Shown: piece by piece, positions 20,429 through 28,294 of the stretch | How the letters are laid out: each line of letters starts with the position of its first letter | Position numbering within the stretch: the first letter of the stretch is position 1 | Assembly (NCBI GenBank): GCA_937924775.1 | Contig: CALDUT010000011.1 | Coordinates: 62,001 to 126,000, forward strand | Source: an uncultured Gemmata sp. | GTDB lineage: Bacteria; Planctomycetota; Planctomycetia; Gemmatales; Gemmataceae | Length of the DNA stretch: 64,000 bases | Direction of reading: 5' to 3' | Notes under the pieces: model-generated | The model's database searches: none | The model's input: only the letters and a program-made list of their open reading frames with translations | What the model was told of the DNA's origin: nothing | Program-made: the position numbers and the translations under genes

Positions 20429-20460
20429 AATAGACAGTGAACCCAGTAGGAATCCGTCAT

Positions 20461-20488
20461 ACCGGCTGCTACAATAACGGCAGCCGGT
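20461..20488 (+). promoter_or_regulatory. perfect inverted repeat just upstream of fwdD
   Basis: ACCGGCTGC (20461-20469) and GCAGCCGGT (20480-20488) form a perfect 9-bp stem around a 10-base loop that contains a -10-like TACAAT. It ends 17 bases before the fwdD start. It could be an operator, a 5' leader hairpin or the terminator of the preceding gene; no T-tract follows. Confidence 0.4.
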
Positions 20489-20505
20489 TACATGCCGAGG
20501 TCGCC

Positions 20506-20847
20506 GTGAGTCAGCGTTTTCTGTTGATGCCAATTCGTTCCAATAAACAGGGGGTGCAAATCAACGTGGGCAAAGACAGCGACGAATACCAGGCGATTGT
20601 TAACACGTTGCAGATGCACCCCGATGATATGAAAGAACTGGGGATCACCACCGGGGCCCTGGTCCGCGTCACCACCGCGGTGGGGGCCGCCGAATTTCAC
20701 TGCAAAGAAGCCAATGTACCGCGGGGAATGCTGTTTGTCCCCTACGGTCCGCCCACCTGCCAACTGTACGGAGGGGATACCGATGGCACCGGCATGCCCA
20801 CCTCGAAAGGCTGGGAAGTGGAAGTCGAAGTGATTCGTCCTCACTAG
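20506..20847 (+). CDS. fwdD: formylmethanofuran dehydrogenase subunit D (molybdopterin dinucleotide-binding)
   Basis: A 113-residue protein matching the small MGD-binding subunit FwdD/FmdD: an early INVGKDSDEY, then MHPDDMKELGITTGALVRV, and the diagnostic C-terminal block GMLFVPYGPPTCQLYGG, TDGTGMP, KGWEVEVE. It completes the metallopterin site of FwdB. The GTG at 20506 is chosen because GAGG lies five bases upstream; the frame also opens at a GTG at 20437. Note the naming trap: FhcD of methylotrophs is the formyltransferase, a different protein. It is first in the cluster. A separate FwdD subunit argues that the FwdB partner carries the pterin cofactor. Confidence 0.88.
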   Translation: MSQRFLLMPIRSNKQGVQINVGKDSDEYQAIVNTLQMHPDDMKELGITTGALVRVTTAVGAAEFHCKEANVPRGMLFVPYGPPTCQLYGGDTDGTGMPTSKGWEVEVEVIRPH

Positions 20848-21098: not shown

Positions 21099-22505
21099 AT
21101 GACGACCACCCGCACTGCAGACGCACCCCCCCAGCACAAACAGGAATTGACGGTCGTTCAACACGCCACCTGCACCTTCTGCGGTTGCGTGTGCGACGAC
21201 ATCGAGCTGCGCGCCAACCACGAACGCATCGTCGAAACGAAACGGGCGTGTTTTTTGGGCGAAGCATGGTTCAAGCACCATACCGCCGAGCGACTGTACC
21301 CGGATGCGCTGATCGACGGCCGACCCGCCAGCTACGACGAAGCCGTGGAAGTGGCCGCGGAAATTCTCTATTCCGCGAACATGCCGCTGGTGTATGGCCT
21401 CAGCAACACCACCTGCGAGGCCCAGCGTGAAGCGGTTTGGCTGGCAGAACTCGTCGGCGGGGTCATCGATAGCCACACGTCGCTTTGACACGGCCCGACA
21501 GAAATCGCCGCCCAGTTGGGTGGTAAGGTGTCGTGTACGTTGGGCGAAGTCAAAAACCGTGCGGATTTCATCATTTACTGGGGCGGGAACCCGGCGGAGT
21601 GTCATCCACGGCACTTCACCCGCTACACCCTCACCCAGAAGGGGAAATTCCTGCCCCGTGGTCGCAAGGATCGCACGATGGTGCTGGTTGATATTCGAGA
21701 GACATCCAGTGCCAAAGCCGCCGACATTTTTCTGCAAGTGCGGCCCGGCAAAGACTTTGAGATGATCACCATCCTCCGGGCCCTGATCAAGAATCAGGAA
21801 GTGGCCCCGGAAGCCGCGGCAGAAACCGGACTGACCCTAGACCAACTGCAGGATTTGGTGAACCGGATGAAAGCCGCGAAATTCGGCGTCCTCTTCTTTG
21901 GTATGGGGCTGTCCATGACCCGCGGCAAGCACATGAATAGCGCTGCGGCCCTCACCCTCGCGGCCGAGATGAATGCCTTCACCAAGTTTGTCGCCATGCC
22001 GATGCGCGGACATGGCAACGTGACCGGAGCCGATGTCGTTCTGCGTTACACGCTCTGCTACCCGTTTGGGATCAATCTCAGCCGCGGCTATCCCCGTTTC
22101 AACCCCGGGGAATTTTCGACGATCGACCTGCTGGTACGCGGGGATAACGACGCCACGCTCGTGATCGGGGCCGATCCCGGGGCCACCATGCCCAAACCCG
22201 CGATCGAACACCTCCGCCGTACCCCGACCATTGTTCTCGACCCGAAAGTGACACACACCAGCCGGCTGGCACGCGTCCACTTCACCACCGCCCCCGCCGG
22301 CATCAGCGCCCCGGGCACGGCCTACCGCATGGACGAAGTGCCGCTGCCGCTCCGCCCGGCCCTGAAGTCGCCCTATTTGAGCGATGAGGACGTTCTCAAA
22401 CGCATCATCGCGGCGGTACAGAAAAAACCGGCGTGGTATCCGCCCACACCCCCAGGCCAAGCCGTGCCGTACAGCCGGGAACCCGCGAACGGACAGCTCG
22501 CGTAA
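21099..22505 (+). CDS. fwdB: formylmethanofuran dehydrogenase subunit B, predicted selenoprotein (in-frame UGA at codon 130)
   Basis: Catalytic Mo/W subunit, 468 residues if the TGA at 21486-21488 is read as selenocysteine. Before it lie the [4Fe-4S] ligands (C25, C28, C32, C51 in CTFCGCVCDD and RACFLGEAWF). After it the same frame continues HGPTEIAAQLGG, SCTLGEVKNRADFIIYWGGNP and HPRHFTRY, all family signatures. In characterised archaeal FwdB the residue before His-Gly-Pro is the Cys that ligates W or Mo (Sec in FwuB of Methanopyrus), so the UGA falls exactly on the catalytic ligand. His131 and Arg303 (MRGHGN) match the other active-site residues. No clear ribosome-binding site precedes the ATG. 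A nonsense mutation or sequencing error is the alternative, but the frame, the position and the following hairpin argue against it. Confidence 0.85.
21496..21533 (+). promoter_or_regulatory. bacterial SECIS-like hairpin following the fwdB UGA
   Basis: Right after the UGA, CGACA (21496-21500) pairs with TGTCG (21529-21533). An upper stem GCCGCCC (21507-21513) pairs with GGGTGGT (21518-21524), using two G-U pairs, around a four-base loop AGUU (21514-21517). The apical loop starts 25 bases after the UGA and has G as its second base. This fits the known bacterial SECIS rules: loop 16-37 bases downstream, with a G in the first two loop positions. It lies inside the coding region, as bacterial SECIS elements do. 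Confidence 0.65.
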
Positions 22506-22560: not shown

Positions 22561-24198
22561 ATGCTGCGTATCACCAACGGGACAATTTACGACCCGAAAA
22601 ATGGCGTCCACGGTGTGGTCCAGGATGTGTGCATAGCCGATGGCAAAATCGTCGCCGATGTGCCCGCGTATGCCCGCACCATCGACGCTGCGGGCATGAT
22701 CGTTTTTCCCGGCGGGGTCGATGTCCACACGCATGTGGCCGGGGCCGCCCTCAACTTCGCCCGTGGCCTGATCCCCGAACAGCACCGGAAAGCCCGCCCG
22801 ATCTTCCATTCGCCGCAGTGCCGCGCAGGCTTAGCGGGCAGTACGCCCACCACCTTCGCCACAGGCTACGTATACGCCGGCATGGGCTGGACCACCGCCA
22901 ACGAAGCCGCGGTGCCCATCCTCAGCGCCAAACATACCCACGAAGAACTCGCCGACACCCCCATCCTTGACAAATGCGCCTGTGTGTTGATGGCGAATAA
23001 CGAGATTCTCCTCGATTTGCTCGAAAACGGTGAATTCGAACGGGCGAAAGAACTCACCGCATGGCAGGTGTGGGCGGCCAAAGCCTATGGCGTCAAAGCG
23101 GTCAACCCCGGCGGTGTGGCCGGCTGGAAGTGGGGTAAAGACTGCAAAGGGCTCGACGAACTGGTCCCCGGTTATCGCCGGGTCACGCCGCGAACGATCA
23201 TCAAAGCCCTCGCCGACATCATCGATCGACTCGCCTTGCCCCACCCACTGCACATCCACTGCAACAACCTCGGCGCTCCGGGCAACTACACCACCACGCT
23301 AGAGACGATGAAAACCCTCGAAGGCCACCGCGCCCACATGGCCCACTTGCAATACCATGCCTACGGCGGCGACGATTGGTTCACCATGCGTTCGGCCAGC
23401 GTGCCCATCGCGGACTATTTCAACGCTCACCCCAACCTCACCTGCGATGCTGGCGCGGTATTATTTGGTAATACCGTCACCATCACCGCCGATGGCCCCT
23501 GGCAGCACCTACTGTACGAACTGACCGGCAAAAAATGGGGCAATCTCGATGTCGAGAACGAAACCGGTTGTGGGGTCGTACCTTACGTCTATAAAGAAAA
23601 GAATCTCGTCAATGCGGTGCAGTGGGCCGTCGGTCTAGAACTGATGCTCCTCATCAACGACCCCTGGCGGGTCAGCCTCACCACCGACCACCCCAACGGT
23701 GCGTGCTTCTGGCGTTACCCCGAAATCCTCCGGCTGCTCATGGACCGCGACTTTCGCCGCGAGGAATTGAAAAAACTCCCTGAGAAAGCCCTCTCCCGCA
23801 TGGTGTTGCCCGAACTCGATCGCGAATATACGCTCAGCGAAATCGCCATCATCACCAGCGCTGGCCCGGCCCGTACCCTCGGACTCGACCACAAGGGCCA
23901 CTTGGGCGTTGGAGCCGACGCCGACATCGCCATTTACAACGCTCACTCCAACCCCATGGAGATGTTCGCTTACCCGCGGTTCGTTATCAAAAGTGGACAA
24001 ATTATCATCGAAGAGGGGGAACTCCGCAATAGCATCGACGGCCATCAGTATGTTGCCCAACCTCACTACGATGCGAGTATTGAAGACTACCTCCGCCCGC
24101 TCTTTCAGCAGTATTACACCCTGTCGTTCGAAAACTATCCGGTGGATGAAAGCCGCGTACACGGCATGCATGTGACAAGGTGCTACCCTGAACGGTAA
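22561..24198 (+). CDS. fwdA: formylmethanofuran dehydrogenase subunit A (amidohydrolase)
   Basis: A 545-residue zinc amidohydrolase that interconverts formate and formylmethanofuran. The start MLRITNGTIYDPKNG is typical, with AAGG five bases before the ATG; the open frame reaches 22384 but the extension is non-homologous. Metal-site motifs are GVDVHTHVAG (H56, H58), GVKAVNPGG (probable carboxylated Lys near 179), HIHCNNLG (H231, H233), AHLQYHAYGGDD, and SLTTDHPNGACFW with the catalytic Asp. The C-terminal LGVGADADIAIY is usual for amidohydrolases. Length is normal. It follows fwdB by 55 bp. In archaea FwdA receives formate through a tunnel from FwdB. Confidence 0.95.
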   Translation: MLRITNGTIYDPKNGVHGVVQDVCIADGKIVADVPAYARTIDAAGMIVFPGGVDVHTHVAGAALNFARGLIPEQHRKARPIFHSPQCRAGLAGSTPTTFATGYVYAGMGWTTANEAAVPILSAKHTHEELADTPILDKCACVLMANNEILLDLLENGEFERAKELTAWQVWAAKAYGVKAVNPGGVAGWKWGKDCKGLDELVPGYRRVTPRTIIKALADIIDRLALPHPLHIHCNNLGAPGNYTTTLETMKTLEGHRAHMAHLQYHAYGGDDWFTMRSASVPIADYFNAHPNLTCDAGAVLFGNTVTITADGPWQHLLYELTGKKWGNLDVENETGCGVVPYVYKEKNLVNAVQWAVGLELMLLINDPWRVSLTTDHPNGACFWRYPEILRLLMDRDFRREELKKLPEKALSRMVLPELDREYTLSEIAIITSAGPARTLGLDHKGHLGVGADADIAIYNAHSNPMEMFAYPRFVIKSGQIIIEEGELRNSIDGHQYVAQPHYDASIEDYLRPLFQQYYTLSFENYPVDESRVHGMHVTRCYPER

Positions 24199-24324
24199 AA
24201 GTCACTATGGATATGAGCTTTGTAATAATTGCCGCAGTGACTATGCCGTTTTAGGGATATGAAAATGACAGAAAGGTCACTTCAGACATTCACTCCGTGA
24301 TATTTCTTGCTAGCCTTCTGCCTT
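24199..24324 (+). promoter_or_regulatory. repeat-bearing AT-rich gap between fwdA and fwdC
   Basis: In a compact cluster this 126-bp gap is AT-rich and carries AGTCACT (24200-24206) with its inverse AGTGACT (24236-24242), plus a direct repeat GGATATGA (24209-24216 and 24255-24262). Further GTCACT and TTCACT copies follow. This suggests a regulator-binding region or separate promoter for fwdC. No gene over 15 codons is present. Confidence 0.35.
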
Positions 24325-25170
24325 ATGCTCACTCTCACTCTGAAATCCGCGCTCACGGTTCCCTTGGAAGCGGAAGTGCTGTCTCCCGATGTGCTGGCGG
24401 GACTTTCCCCGGCGGCCATCCGCACGCTGCCCGTGATGCTAGGCAAACGCCAGCAGCGGCTGGAGGACCATTTCGAGATTGACGGCCACGGCAGCGACGA
24501 GATCGAGCTGCGCGGGGACTTGAGCAAAGTCAAATGGATCGGCCGGGGCATGACCCGCGGTCGTATCCGCGTGGTGGGCCATGCGGGTATGCACCTGGGA
24601 GCCTACATGCATGGCGGCGTTATTGAAGTCACCGGCAACGCCACCGATTGGGTCGGCGGCGAGATGAGCGGAGGGCTCATTCATATTCGCGGTCACGCCG
24701 GGCAGCAGCTTGGGGCGGCCTACCGCGGCAGTGCCACCGGTATGACCGGTGGCACCATTCTGGTGGAAGGCAGTGCCGGTGTTGAAATCGGTATGCGGAT
24801 GAAACGCGGCCTGATCGCCATTCGCGGACCGGTCCGCGATTTCGCCGGGCTGCAGATGAAAGGCGGCACGATCGTGTTGATGAGCGGTGGCGAACTGCGC
24901 ACCGGGGCCTGGATGCACCGGGGCACGATCATTTCCCTCCAACCGCTCCATCTCCTGCCCACATTCACCGCCACCTGTGTGTATCAACCCACTTTTCTGG
25001 CCCTTTATGCCAAATACCTGGCCCGGTTTGGTTTCACGCTGCCCTTAGGAAACTACCGGCGGCATATGGGCGACGCCAGCGTTCCGGGAAAAGGCGAAAT
25101 CCTGGTTTGGCAACCGCCGGCGGAACGCACATCCGCGGCCCCAGGGCCACTGGACGGGGCCGCCGGGTAG
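24325..25170 (+). CDS. fwdC: formylmethanofuran dehydrogenase subunit C
   Basis: A 281-residue beta-helical subunit. The N-terminus MLTLTLKSALTVPLEAEVLSP is family-typical. The core has repeated 'GxxxGxxMxxGxI' units, for example VVGHAGMHLGAYMHGGVIEV, GNATDWVGGEMSGGLIHI and MRMKRGLIAIRGPVRDFAG. This parallel beta-helix is shared with FwdC and the glutamate synthase alpha C-terminal domain. The C-terminus (TFTATCVYQPTFLALYAKYL) fits bacterial FhcC. The ATG at 24325 is preferred over a TTG at 24307 although no ribosome-binding site is evident. It is the last gene of the cluster; no formyltransferase gene follows, unlike fhcCDAB of methylotrophs. Confidence 0.9.
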   Translation: MLTLTLKSALTVPLEAEVLSPDVLAGLSPAAIRTLPVMLGKRQQRLEDHFEIDGHGSDEIELRGDLSKVKWIGRGMTRGRIRVVGHAGMHLGAYMHGGVIEVTGNATDWVGGEMSGGLIHIRGHAGQQLGAAYRGSATGMTGGTILVEGSAGVEIGMRMKRGLIAIRGPVRDFAGLQMKGGTIVLMSGGELRTGAWMHRGTIISLQPLHLLPTFTATCVYQPTFLALYAKYLARFGFTLPLGNYRRHMGDASVPGKGEILVWQPPAERTSAAPGPLDGAAG

Positions 25171-25325: not shown

Positions 25326-26624
25326 TCAGGGCTTCCACCACGCATCGAGTTTGCGGGTCAATGCCGCGACCGTGGCTGGGTGCTGGGCGGCCCGATTCTC
25401 GGTTTCGTTCGGGTCGTTGGTCAAATCGTAAAGCTCTGGAGCTGCCCCGGGCACGTTCGTGGCCTGGGGCACAATCAGTTTCCAATTTTTCTCGATGATC
25501 CAGCGGTATTGGACGTTGGCCGCGGGATTGTGGATGTCGATGGCGTTGTGTTCAAAAATTGCTCCGTAAAGGGTCTCGCGGGCCGCGACGGCGGCGGCAT
25601 CGAGCAGGTTCAGCCCGGGCATCTCCGCGGTGGGCTTCGCCCCGACAGCGTGCAGGATGGTGGGGACTAAATCGATGGAATGGGCCAGATGCTCGCTGCG
25701 GCTCGGTTTCACATGCCCCGGCCAGCGGATGAGGATGGGGGTGCGAATGCCGCCATCGTAAGGGGATCGCTTCGATTTGGGAGCGAAATTGCTGGAATCT
25801 TCACTTTGAATCCAGCCGTTGTCGTGCAGGTAAATCACCAGGGTGTTGTCGGCCTGCCCATTTTTTTTAAGCCGCTCCAGAAGCTCACCCACGGTTTCAT
25901 CGAACCATTCGCACATCGCCCAATACCGAGCCACATATTCCGATCGGGTTTTGGTTGCGTATTTTTGGAACAGCCGCTCGGGGGGATTGTGAGGCGTATG
26001 CGGCATCATTGGGGCATACCAGAGGAAGAAGGGCTTGCGTTCGCGGTGGGCTTTGTCGAGGAAATCGAAGACCGGTTGCAGCCCTTGGCGACCAATTTTC
26101 AGACCGTCGTCGCCGTGTCGGCCGCCTTTGGCCGGATCCCCGTGGGTCATCCCTTCGGTGAAGCCGCAGCGGCAAGCGTTGCCTTCCCACCACTTACCCA
26201 CCTGGAGGCTGATAAAGCCCTCTTTTTCCAACAGTTGGGCCAGATTGGGGGATTTGTGGAAGATCGCGACCATTTCCTCGCGGAGTTTGAGGTAGCCGGG
26301 GTCTTTCATGGCCTGCCCGGCTTTGAGACCTTTGGGCAGCGGTGGATCGTTGGAGGTGATTTTGTGCTGATGAGGATAAAGCCCGGTCATCATCGTGGCG
26401 AGGCTGGCCCGGCATAAGCTGCTGGGCACATAGCCGCGGGGAAATACGAGCGATTCCGACGCCAAACGGTCCAAATGGGGTGTTTGGATGTGCTGGTGAC
26501 CCATGAAGCCGTAATCGGTCCAGGCTTGGTCGTCGCCTACAAGCAACAGCACATTCGGGGGAGCGGCCCCACTGGTCTGTACAAATATTAGAATACTGAT
26601 TAGCGTAGTCAGAATTCGTCCCAT
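25326..26624 (-). CDS. secreted sulfatase with Ser-type active-site motif
   Basis: A 432-residue alkaline-phosphatase-superfamily sulfatase. The start MGRILTTLISILIFVQTSGAA gives a signal peptide; the longer frame to 26915 reads as a shadow. Metal-site and fold motifs are NVLLLVGDDQAWTDYG, PSSLCRASLATMMTG, WYAPMMPHTPHNPP and VIYLHDNGW. In the formylglycine motif the position normally held by Cys is Ser, and the third position is Leu rather than Pro (SSLCR), so maturation would need an anSME-type enzyme if it is active. Substrate unknown. It lies in tandem with a second sulfatase and is convergent with fwdC. Confidence 0.88.
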   Translation of the reverse strand: MGRILTTLISILIFVQTSGAAPPNVLLLVGDDQAWTDYGFMGHQHIQTPHLDRLASESLVFPRGYVPSSLCRASLATMMTGLYPHQHKITSNDPPLPKGLKAGQAMKDPGYLKLREEMVAIFHKSPNLAQLLEKEGFISLQVGKWWEGNACRCGFTEGMTHGDPAKGGRHGDDGLKIGRQGLQPVFDFLDKAHRERKPFFLWYAPMMPHTPHNPPERLFQKYATKTRSEYVARYWAMCEWFDETVGELLERLKKNGQADNTLVIYLHDNGWIQSEDSSNFAPKSKRSPYDGGIRTPILIRWPGHVKPSRSEHLAHSIDLVPTILHAVGAKPTAEMPGLNLLDAAAVAARETLYGAIFEHNAIDIHNPAANVQYRWIIEKNWKLIVPQATNVPGAAPELYDLTNDPNETENRAAQHPATVAALTRKLDAWWKP

Positions 26625-26748
26625 GACTCTGGCCCTCTCCCTGTTGGTGATCGTCGAGAATCTCCCCTGTGATCGGTTTCTCAGGTTGCGGAAAACGACC
26701 GGCGCTGAGAACGGCCAAGCTATCGTTACCGAAAGTGCCAGTGGCGGA

Positions 26749-26780
26749 AGACCGCGCCGCGGTATTACCGCCGGGGGTCT
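26749..26780 (-). terminator. hairpin between the two sulfatase genes
   Basis: GCGGT (26759-26763) pairs with ACCGC (26767-26771), nested in AGACC (26749-26753) with GGTCT (26776-26780). It lies about 55 bases after the stop of the upstream sulfatase. There is no T-tract, so it is a weak terminator candidate. Confidence 0.3.
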
Positions 26781-26836
26781 GTGAAAGTCAGATTCCGCGG
26801 CGGCGTGGGGGCAAGTGCGTACAGCGGGAAAAGTCG

Positions 26837-28294
26837 TCACTTCTTCTTGGGCAGAAGGGCTTTCATTTGCTGCACGACCATGGCGTACTGCGGGTCGTCG
26901 GCGAGGTTTTTCCATTCGTGGGGGTCGTTTTCATAGTCGTACAATTGTGCGCCCTTGCTGCCGCCGTCCCACTCGGTGTAGCGGTAGCGTTCTGTCCGAA
27001 CACTGTAACCCATGTACCAGGGATTTTTGCCAGTGGTTTCTCCAGTGACGGTGGGAGTGCCTCGGCTGACCTGGGTATACGCGGGGCGGTTCCAGGGAGC
27101 CGCGGGATTGTCGAGCAGGGGTTTGAGACTCACCCCATCCAGTCGCGGCACCTTCGGGTCGTTTCCATCGGGTACCGGTAAGCCGCACAAATCGGCCAAG
27201 GTGGCGTGCAGATCGACCAATTCTACGGTCCGGCCGCAGGCTTTCCCATTCCCGCGGGCTCGGGGATCGTAAATGATCAGTGGCACCCGGGCGGAATTCT
27301 CGAACAAACTCATTTTCTGCCACAACCCATGCTCGCCCAAATGATAGCCGTGATCGCTCAGAAACACGACGATGGTTTTGTTGGCCAGTTGCAATCGTTC
27401 GAGGGCCTCCAGAACCCGGCCCACTTGGGCATCCATGAACGTGGTCGAGGCGTAATAGGCTTGCAACGCTTGGCGGCGCAGTTCGTCGGTGAGTTTCTCT
27501 TGCTCTTTTTTGTGGCTAGCGAAGGCGGCGGCCGGGTGCTGTTGCCAATGATGGGCCGGCACCTTCGGCAGTGTGATCTTCTCCCGGGGGTACATCTCAA
27601 AGTATTTTTTGGGGGCCACATAGGGCGTATGCGGCCGGAAGAAACCGCAGGCGATGAAAAACGGCTTGTCGTGGTGTTCTTCGAGCAGCTTGATAGTAGC
27701 GTCGGCGCTCATCCCGTCGGTTTGTTCGGCGTCGGTGCCGTCGGCGGCCAGCCAACTGAGGGTTCCTCCGTAGCGGGCCGAGCCTTTCGCGGTGGGGTTG
27801 AGCGTGAAGATCAGGTCTTTCTCTTCATCATCTTTGTCGCGGCCGCGGGGATTGATCGTCTTCGTCCAGGAGGGTTTGTCGTCGAGGCCGTCGGTGCCAA
27901 TTTGGGCGGGCACCCCGTAGTGGTAGAGCTTACCGACCCGAACCACGGTGTAGCCCGCTTTTTGGAAGGTTTGCCCAAGGCTTTGAGCGTCGGGCACATT
28001 TTTGCGGAATTGGGTGGCATTTTCATAAACTCGCAGCGTATCAGGCCGCAGGCCGGTCAGAAAACTTGCCCGCGACGGATTGCACAGCGGGAACTGACAG
28101 TAGGCCCGGTCGAAACGCACCCCTTTGGCGGCCAACTTGTCGATATGAGGCGATTGGCATAGTGTGCTGCCATAACAGCCGAGGGTGGTGTTGGTCAGAT
28201 CGTCGGAGACGATGAACAGCACGTTCATTTTCTCCGCCGCCGCGGCCGGTCCGCTGAACAGGATGAGGGCCACGAGAGGAAACCATCGCGTCAT
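26837..28294 (-). CDS. secreted sulfatase, iduronate-2-sulfatase-like
   Basis: A 485-residue sulfatase with a signal peptide (MTRWFPLVALILFSGPAAAAE). Motifs are NVLFIVSDDL; the classical Cys-type formylglycine site CNPSRASFLTG near residue 71; GYFxxGKxYH-like VVRVGKLYHYG; FIACGFFRPHTPYVAP; VVFLSDHGYHLGEHGLWQK; and the C-terminal RTERYRYTEWDGG and LYDYENDPHEWKNLADD. The RPH and HLGEH blocks are typical of iduronate-2-sulfatase-like (S1_7) enzymes. GGGAG lies just before the ATG. It probably degrades sulfated polysaccharide outside the cytoplasm; the true substrate is not readable. Confidence 0.92.
   Translation of the reverse strand: MTRWFPLVALILFSGPAAAAEKMNVLFIVSDDLTNTTLGCYGSTLCQSPHIDKLAAKGVRFDRAYCQFPLCNPSRASFLTGLRPDTLRVYENATQFRKNVPDAQSLGQTFQKAGYTVVRVGKLYHYGVPAQIGTDGLDDKPSWTKTINPRGRDKDDEEKDLIFTLNPTAKGSARYGGTLSWLAADGTDAEQTDGMSADATIKLLEEHHDKPFFIACGFFRPHTPYVAPKKYFEMYPREKITLPKVPAHHWQQHPAAAFASHKKEQEKLTDELRRQALQAYYASTTFMDAQVGRVLEALERLQLANKTIVVFLSDHGYHLGEHGLWQKMSLFENSARVPLIIYDPRARGNGKACGRTVELVDLHATLADLCGLPVPDGNDPKVPRLDGVSLKPLLDNPAAPWNRPAYTQVSRGTPTVTGETTGKNPWYMGYSVRTERYRYTEWDGGSKGAQLYDYENDPHEWKNLADDPQYAMVVQQMKALLPKKK

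Follow-up and report, generated by a model that had tools for sequence, protein, structure and literature searches.

A UGA codon, very probably read as selenocysteine, at the metal-ligand position of formylmethanofuran dehydrogenase subunit B in an uncultured Gemmata and many related planctomycetes

The gene for formylmethanofuran dehydrogenase subunit B (fwdB) of an uncultured Gemmata sp. contains an in-frame UGA that is very probably a selenocysteine (Sec) codon. The enzyme, which processes carbon compounds, is chiefly familiar from methanogenic archaea. The gene was found in a stretch of 64,000 nucleotides of contig CALDUT010000011.1, hereafter called the window, within the gene order fwdD-B-A-C. 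The best explanation, which we hold with high confidence, is SECIS- and SelB-directed insertion of Sec130 into the predicted catalytic Mo/W subunit, FwdB, of the formylmethanofuran dehydrogenase that this cluster would encode. As for its parts, the decoding of codon 130 as Sec appears very likely, and a working Sec-containing formylmethanofuran dehydrogenase is a likely product. What the DNA presents directly is the position and conservation of the UGA, the constraint on the hairpin and its codons, the decoding machinery and the operon, as well as the fact that the genome has only one fwdB match. An initial annotation of the window had proposed that this planctomycete makes a Sec-containing FwdB, and the proposal is now supported by the machinery, by the UGA kept in close relatives and by a hairpin that conforms to published rules.

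Results

An in-frame UGA at the metal-ligand codon of fwdB

Read through the UGA, the product matches the NCBIfam profile TIGR03129 (formylmethanofuran dehydrogenase subunit B) with 486 bits against a cut-off of 328, over profile positions 2–420 of 421; with TIGR01591 (formate dehydrogenase alpha) it scores 53.6 bits against a cut-off of 666. The frame (Table 1) contains a single TGA, at codon 130, in the context DSHTSL-U-HGPTEIAAQLGGKVSCTLGEVKNRADF, and ends on TAA. That this TGA is the only one in the frame had been stated in the initial annotation and stands; the segment TLGEVKNRADF, said there to come right after HGPT, does not, as EIAAQLGGKVSC lies between the two.

The assignment of the UGA to the metal-ligand codon was borne out by alignment with solved structures. 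Codon 130 falls on the Cys preceding His-Gly-Pro in the archaeal FwdB 5t5i_B (Cys118, counted along the alignment) and on a residue printed as X in the solved structure 9sfi_Q, which at this column is presumably Sec. The window protein has U130-H131-G132-P133 and also R303, which by counting is aligned to Arg288 of 5t5i_B, a residue that we take to have a catalytic role. Its N-terminal Cys motif is found with all four residues (C25, C28, C32 and C51) in each of the 91 Sec genes whose sequence extends to the N-terminal end and likewise in 42 non-Sec genes, and is not discriminating because the latter carry it too. An AlphaFold model of FwdB, made with a 16-row alignment (A1), was poor (pLDDT 63.8, with residues 125–145 below 50). 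Comparison of the post-UGA part of fwdB with plasmids gave 27 records, every one below 60% identity.

Table 1. Features of the fwd locus in the window
Feature	Position	Strand	Basis or remark
fwdD homologue	ORF 20437-20847, likely start ATG 20527 (20527..20847)	+	NCBIfam NF042908
fwdB, predicted selenocysteine form	21099..22505	+	TIGR03129; 468 residues if the UGA is translated as Sec
N-terminal Cys motif C25-x2-C28-x3-C32...C51, presumed [4Fe-4S] ligands	21171..21251	+	aligned to archaeal Cys motif
In-frame TGA, very probable Sec codon 130, Mo/W ligand position	21486..21488	+	frame, homologues, structure alignment
Bacterial SECIS hairpin (predicted)	stem 21507-21513/21518-21524, loop AGUU 21514-21517	+	25 nt past UGA, inside CDS
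fwdA (formylmethanofuran dehydrogenase subunit A)	22561..24198	+	TIGR03121, 694 bits
fwdC	24307..25170	+	TIGR03122, 257 bits

Conservation of the UGA among relatives

Of the 95 family genomes surveyed, 46 (among them the source genome of the window) have a FwdB that exceeds the cut-off and contains a single TGA. All 46 loci have the TGA at the aligned ligand codon, mostly within S-L-U-H-G-P-T-E-[IV]-A-A-Q-L-[GS]-G, and these Sec genes score 469–504 bits. A further 60 FwdB genes of the family exceed the cut-off, and 27 of them were read (12 from a Cys-type branch, 12 from the rest and 3 adjoining a Sec gene); the remainder score at most 439 bits. A second FwdB over the cut-off, one without the TGA, is present in 20 of the 46 Sec genomes and absent from 26, among them the source genome, whose single FwdB match is the Sec form. 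There is no overlap between the 46 Sec genomes and the 12 genomes of the Cys-type branch. One genome (G093) has two Sec fwdB matches (L055 and L091), the second being a fragment whose 5' part is missing near the contig start.

Outside this survey, 25 of 392 genomes in a sample of the phylum, with up to four candidates scored per genome, pass the FwdB cut-off and 10 have the TGA form, namely the source genome and nine from five other family codes. Named genomes, searched with patterns that exclude the ligand position, contain 440 stretches encoding a relative. The TGA is at the codon in 80 of 80 of the best 80 of these 440, a figure that is no frequency for FwdB overall because Sec sequences make up most of the alignment and because the best 80 stand nearest. 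Titles among these best 80 of 440 include Gemmata, Gemmataceae, Rhodopirellula, Rubripirellula, Pirellulaceae and Phycisphaeraceae, and five belong to metagenome-assembled genomes (MAGs) labelled Acidobacteria, labels that may be wrong. The nearest named relative among them is a 'Gemmata sp.' MAG with a FwdB 92% identical to that of the window, in agreement with the planctomycete host supposed in the initial annotation.

At codon 130, the 134 distinct homologues read have TGA (92), Cys (24), Gly (11), Ser (3), Thr (2), Asn (1) or Glu (1); six rows without an alignable ligand column (L117–L121 and one in L179) were left out of this count. Aligning the FwdB of relatives at this codon had been proposed as a check, and it showed that close relatives keep the UGA: TGA is found in all 92 genes at least 72% identical to the window protein (window included) and in none of the 42 at 61% identity or less. 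Cys at the ligand codon in 24 of the 42 non-Sec homologues is the UGA/Cys pairing expected of a selenoprotein gene. A nonsense mutation, a pseudogene or a sequencing error would have to explain the identical codon in 92 distinct genes across many assemblies, whose frames run on for 286–338 codons past the TGA, as well as a window frame with no second stop. We regard its probability as next to negligible, in keeping with the earlier argument that a random nonsense mutation was unlikely. A standard ORF caller cuts fwdB in two, and the Sec trait is therefore easily missed.

SECIS hairpin and codon constraint

Candidate SECIS elements were judged by the rules of PMC13188914 (loop of 3–9 nt, stem of 4–16 bp, spacing of 16–37 nt, a G within the first two loop positions, MFE at most −7.5), applied by a script of our own instead of the bSECISearch program that had been suggested for the downstream region. 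A conforming hairpin was found, with a 4-nt loop, 7 bp, the 25-nt spacing of Table 1 and −11.7 kcal/mol. Of the 92 Sec genes, 90 pass these rules; so do 2 of the 42 non-Sec paralogues and 207 (2.3%) of 8961 background codons from 13 window ORFs, 44 (0.5%) of the 8961 being as stable as the window hairpin.

The codons at +9 (CAG) and +10 (TTG) after the UGA are the same in all 46 family genes and in all 92 genes overall, and their bases make up the closing pair and the AGUU loop of the hairpin. TTG accounts for 17% of the Leu codons in the family genes. Among the 46 family genes, 5 of 268 synonymous columns are monomorphic, and +10 is the only one to be so among 26 conserved Leu columns. The upper six stem pairs are formed in all 92 genes except for a G-G mismatch in L183 and L201, the two genes that fail the rules, both of which are Sec fwdB loci of Acidobacteria-labelled MAGs. 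The lowest pair is G-A in 8 of the 92, and one compensatory change in the stem, C-G to T-A (L076 = L163), changes Gly to Ser in the protein. Against synonymous shuffles, the window hairpin has a z of −0.86, with 23% of shuffles as stable; the family mean is −1.28 and that of 27 non-Sec paralogues +0.54. Local-fold stability at the window hairpin gave a z of −1.31. The window hairpin is not unusually stable, and it is the invariant codons and the loop rules that carry the case for a SECIS element.

These data also bear on the reading of the UGA as an ordinary stop with two products, of 129 aa and about 329 aa, the latter from TTG 21516, where a mechanically listed ORF does begin inside fwdB 3' of the UGA. 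The break would, however, sit precisely at the metal ligand, close relatives keep the UGA and have neither TAA nor TAG there, and the codons past the UGA are constrained at the RNA level; we find such a split hardly credible.

Selenocysteine machinery

The source genome (G000; 4.79 Mb, 97% complete) encodes tRNA-Sec (72.9 bits, anticodon TCA), selA (567.6 bits), selB (410 bits, profile 2–579 of 581) and selD (388 bits). Thus, all four of the genes that the initial annotation had named for a genome check, selA, selB, selC and selD, were found. A selA over the cut-off occurs in 42 of the 46 family genomes with a UGA fwdB versus 43 of the 49 without, and the co-occurrence does not discriminate because selA is nearly as common where the UGA gene is missing. 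In four of the 46 UGA-gene genomes (G014, G030, G032 and G039), selA was not found over the cut-off. The three PF00384 matches in the source genome, the third of which is the post-UGA part of fwdB, have no internal stop. Separately, longer frames with a single in-frame TGA gave weak matches elsewhere (G071:C1:5830246, G068:C35:7654, G070:C38:19717 and others); these are perhaps Sec formate dehydrogenases.

Sequence alone cannot name the inserted residue, and a different amino acid might be placed at the UGA through suppression or reassignment. This we consider very improbable given that tRNA-Sec and selA, selB and selD are present, that the hairpin follows bacterial SECIS rules and that Cys occupies the codon in over half of the other homologues read. 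In addition, TGA is the terminator of 17 of the 37 window ORFs of at least 250 aa (a mechanical list that includes the post-UGA part of fwdB and an antisense ORF), and UGA is therefore not reassigned throughout. Nonsense mutation or error, an ordinary stop with two products and general reassignment of UGA were thus rejected, on the conservation of the UGA, the RNA-level constraint and the TGA stops.

The fwd operon and the classes of FwdB

The fwdD homologue of the window matches NF042908 with 63.5 bits (E 2e-17), under the curated cut-off of 175, and residues 2–533 of FwdA match 8rja_A. The gene order of the window is common among the Sec loci compared, and 49 of 137 Sec rows, many of them from short loci, have an ftr-like gene (named by eye) nearby on one strand or the other. 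Directly 3' of the operon are two genes that by eye are sulfatase-like (25326–26915 and 26837–28294 (−)), and genes of their similarity group recur in 14 of the 81 neighbourhoods compared, the window included.

A fwdD at most 1.5 kb upstream was found for 115 of the 128 Sec rows that have at least 1 kb of upstream sequence, for 16 of 25 rows with Cys and for 2 of the 18 ligand-less ones with enough room (rows not de-duplicated), and for none of six rows without an aligned ligand column. The two ligand-less rows (L177 and L178) are both in tandem with a Sec gene; at these loci (L033 = L177 and L039 = L178), a Thr-ligand fwdB paralogue stands between fwdD and the Sec fwdB. At another locus (L059 = L129), the Sec fwdB and, next in tandem, a divergent Cys fwdB with 57% identity to that of the window are a possible selenium-dependent isoenzyme pair.

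A tree was built by a quick method from 82 rows (37 Sec genes out of the 92, the full set of 42 others and 3 archaeal), with the UGA column entered as a gap and with long branches present. The Sec genes form one branch (SH-aLRT 96) with none of the 42 others inside, and its sister branch consists of one Cys and three ligand-less genes; the Cys label needs six changes on the tree and the ligand-less label seven.

All 92 Sec genes and all 19 nearer Cys genes have H131, G132, P133, R303, H305 and N307. Among 18 ligand-less genes, H131 is kept in 16, R303 in 16, P133 in 10, G132 in 6 and N307 in 6, and position 305 is mainly Phe, Pro, Leu or Ser. This pattern suggests that the Sec and nearer Cys forms may be redox enzymes and the ligand-less forms Fhc-like scaffolds. 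H131, R303 and the Cys motif alone are no proof of redox activity, since the ligand-less paralogues mostly keep them.

Discussion

Proposed function

In the mechanism that we propose, SelB and tRNA-Sec(UCA) would decode the UGA under the direction of the downstream SECIS hairpin, and Sec130 would replace the metal-ligand Cys of FwdB. The metal site of this subunit would interconvert CO2 and formate, and FwdA would join formate to methanofuran (or methylofuran), or release it from the carrier. Ftr and Mch, whose genes lie at other sites of the genome, would carry the formyl unit to or from tetrahydromethanopterin (H4MPT). The source genome has two ftr (fhcD) genes that differ from each other (L122 and L123, with 444 and 313 bits) and one mch, which would put the enzyme within H4MPT-linked C1 transfer. 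That the genes are expressed and that the protein binds metal and is redox-active are predictions from sequence, as is any direction of the reaction; for the direction, our guess is oxidation of formyl-methanofuran to CO2, as the final step of C1 oxidation.

The electron partner was sought in the neighbourhood and in the source genome. No ferredoxin gene was recognised by eye among the neighbour clusters found in at least 4 of 81 loci, and no FwdF/FwdG-type protein in the neighbour clusters or in seven frames read from the 14 PF12838 matches of the source genome. By eye, these seven frames resemble NuoI, SdhB, glycolate-oxidase, complex-III-type and cNMP-binding iron-sulphur proteins.

It is conceivable that Sec is inserted and that the complex is a formyl hydrolase only, like bacterial FhcABCD, with a relic Mo/W site. 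Fhc is a known bacterial homologue without Mo/W; in methylotrophic bacteria, as PMC10100899 describes it, the metal-free complex frees formate from the formyl carrier. Next to the genes, no subunit dedicated to electron transfer was recognised, and the residues that the ligand-less paralogues mostly keep (H131, R303 and the Cys motif) would fit a hydrolase as well. The ligand, G132, P133, H305 and N307, however, are kept in the 92 Sec and 19 nearer Cys genes and variable in the 18 ligand-less ones, and fwdD is retained with the Sec form; moreover, that 92 genes should retain a Sec codon and a SECIS element with no redox use is implausible. We therefore judge the hydrolase-only reading unlikely, and a redox-active Fwd enzyme, rather than a methylotroph Fhc hydrolase, the most likely identity of the complex.

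Beyond the window, we lean towards the view that a large bacterial clade may possess an archaeal-type, Sec- and Mo/W-dependent formylmethanofuran dehydrogenase that acts with a non-archaeal electron partner at the redox end of H4MPT-linked C1 metabolism. If this is true, C1 flow would be selenium-dependent in genomes with no other FwdB, the source genome included, and Sec would be fixed in place; no gene read within the clade has changed to Cys. With its strictly kept SECIS and no Cys change seen inside it, the clade offers a test case for Sec retention.

Comparison with known systems

The Sec-containing FwdB of Methanopyrus kandleri is named FwuB. The window gene resembles it and other Sec-containing archaeal FwdB in family (TIGR03129) and in the UHxP motif, and differs in that the archaeal genes use an archaeal SECIS whereas the window gene has a bacterial, in-frame one. 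Unlike the archaeal Fwd systems, the window side has no FwdF/FwdG recognised by eye, and archaeal FwdB and the Sec branch are separate on the tree, which has three archaeal rows only. The alpha subunits of formate dehydrogenases (E. coli FdhF and others) have a Sec ligand before His-x-Pro and a bacterial SECIS just downstream; the window FwdB is alike in both respects but belongs to a different family of the superfamily.

FhcB is a homologous bacterial subunit, likewise involved in C1 transfer with H4MPT/methanofuran. It is described as lacking Mo/W, and bacterial FwdB as gained from archaea (PMC10100899); the window FwdB, in contrast, has at the ligand position a UGA that we read as Sec. The Sec branch includes none of the ligand-less planctomycete paralogues, and its sister branch holds three of them. 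PMC7331816 mentions that its 2020 set lacks bacterial representatives of FwdB. According to a statement in PMC5020050, fwdD is not present in Planctomycetes, whereas the Sec fwdB loci described here do have a fwdD homologue.

FwdB is a verified selenoprotein family (PMC13188914, PMC9312934); planctomycetes are not mentioned in the main texts of these two papers. Sec-FwdB in planctomycetes has been known since 2016 from PMC4807772, which reports fmdB as a selenoprotein in planctomycete P2 (Rhodopirellula sp.) within an operon fmdD-fmdB-fmdA-fmdC, Sec fmdB in several archaea and two unclassified bacteria, and three planctomycetes with Gly forms. No other report of Sec-FwdB in planctomycetes was recognised by title or abstract among the matches listed, which mostly exclude subscription journals. 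The P2 system is like that of the window in having Sec in FmdB, the same gene order and a planctomycete host; it carries Sec and Cys forms, whereas the only FwdB match of the source genome is the Sec form. The account in PMC4807772 concerns one planctomycete genome, as opposed to 92 distinct genes and a test of SECIS constraint here. Our analysis adds breadth, the constraint at the RNA level and a division of FwdB by ligand and by fwdD, and it indicates that the Sec-FwdB trait is common to many Gemmata relatives. That many planctomycetes have a Sec-bearing form accompanied by fwdD suggests that the redox enzyme, in a selenium-dependent version, exists in bacteria as well.
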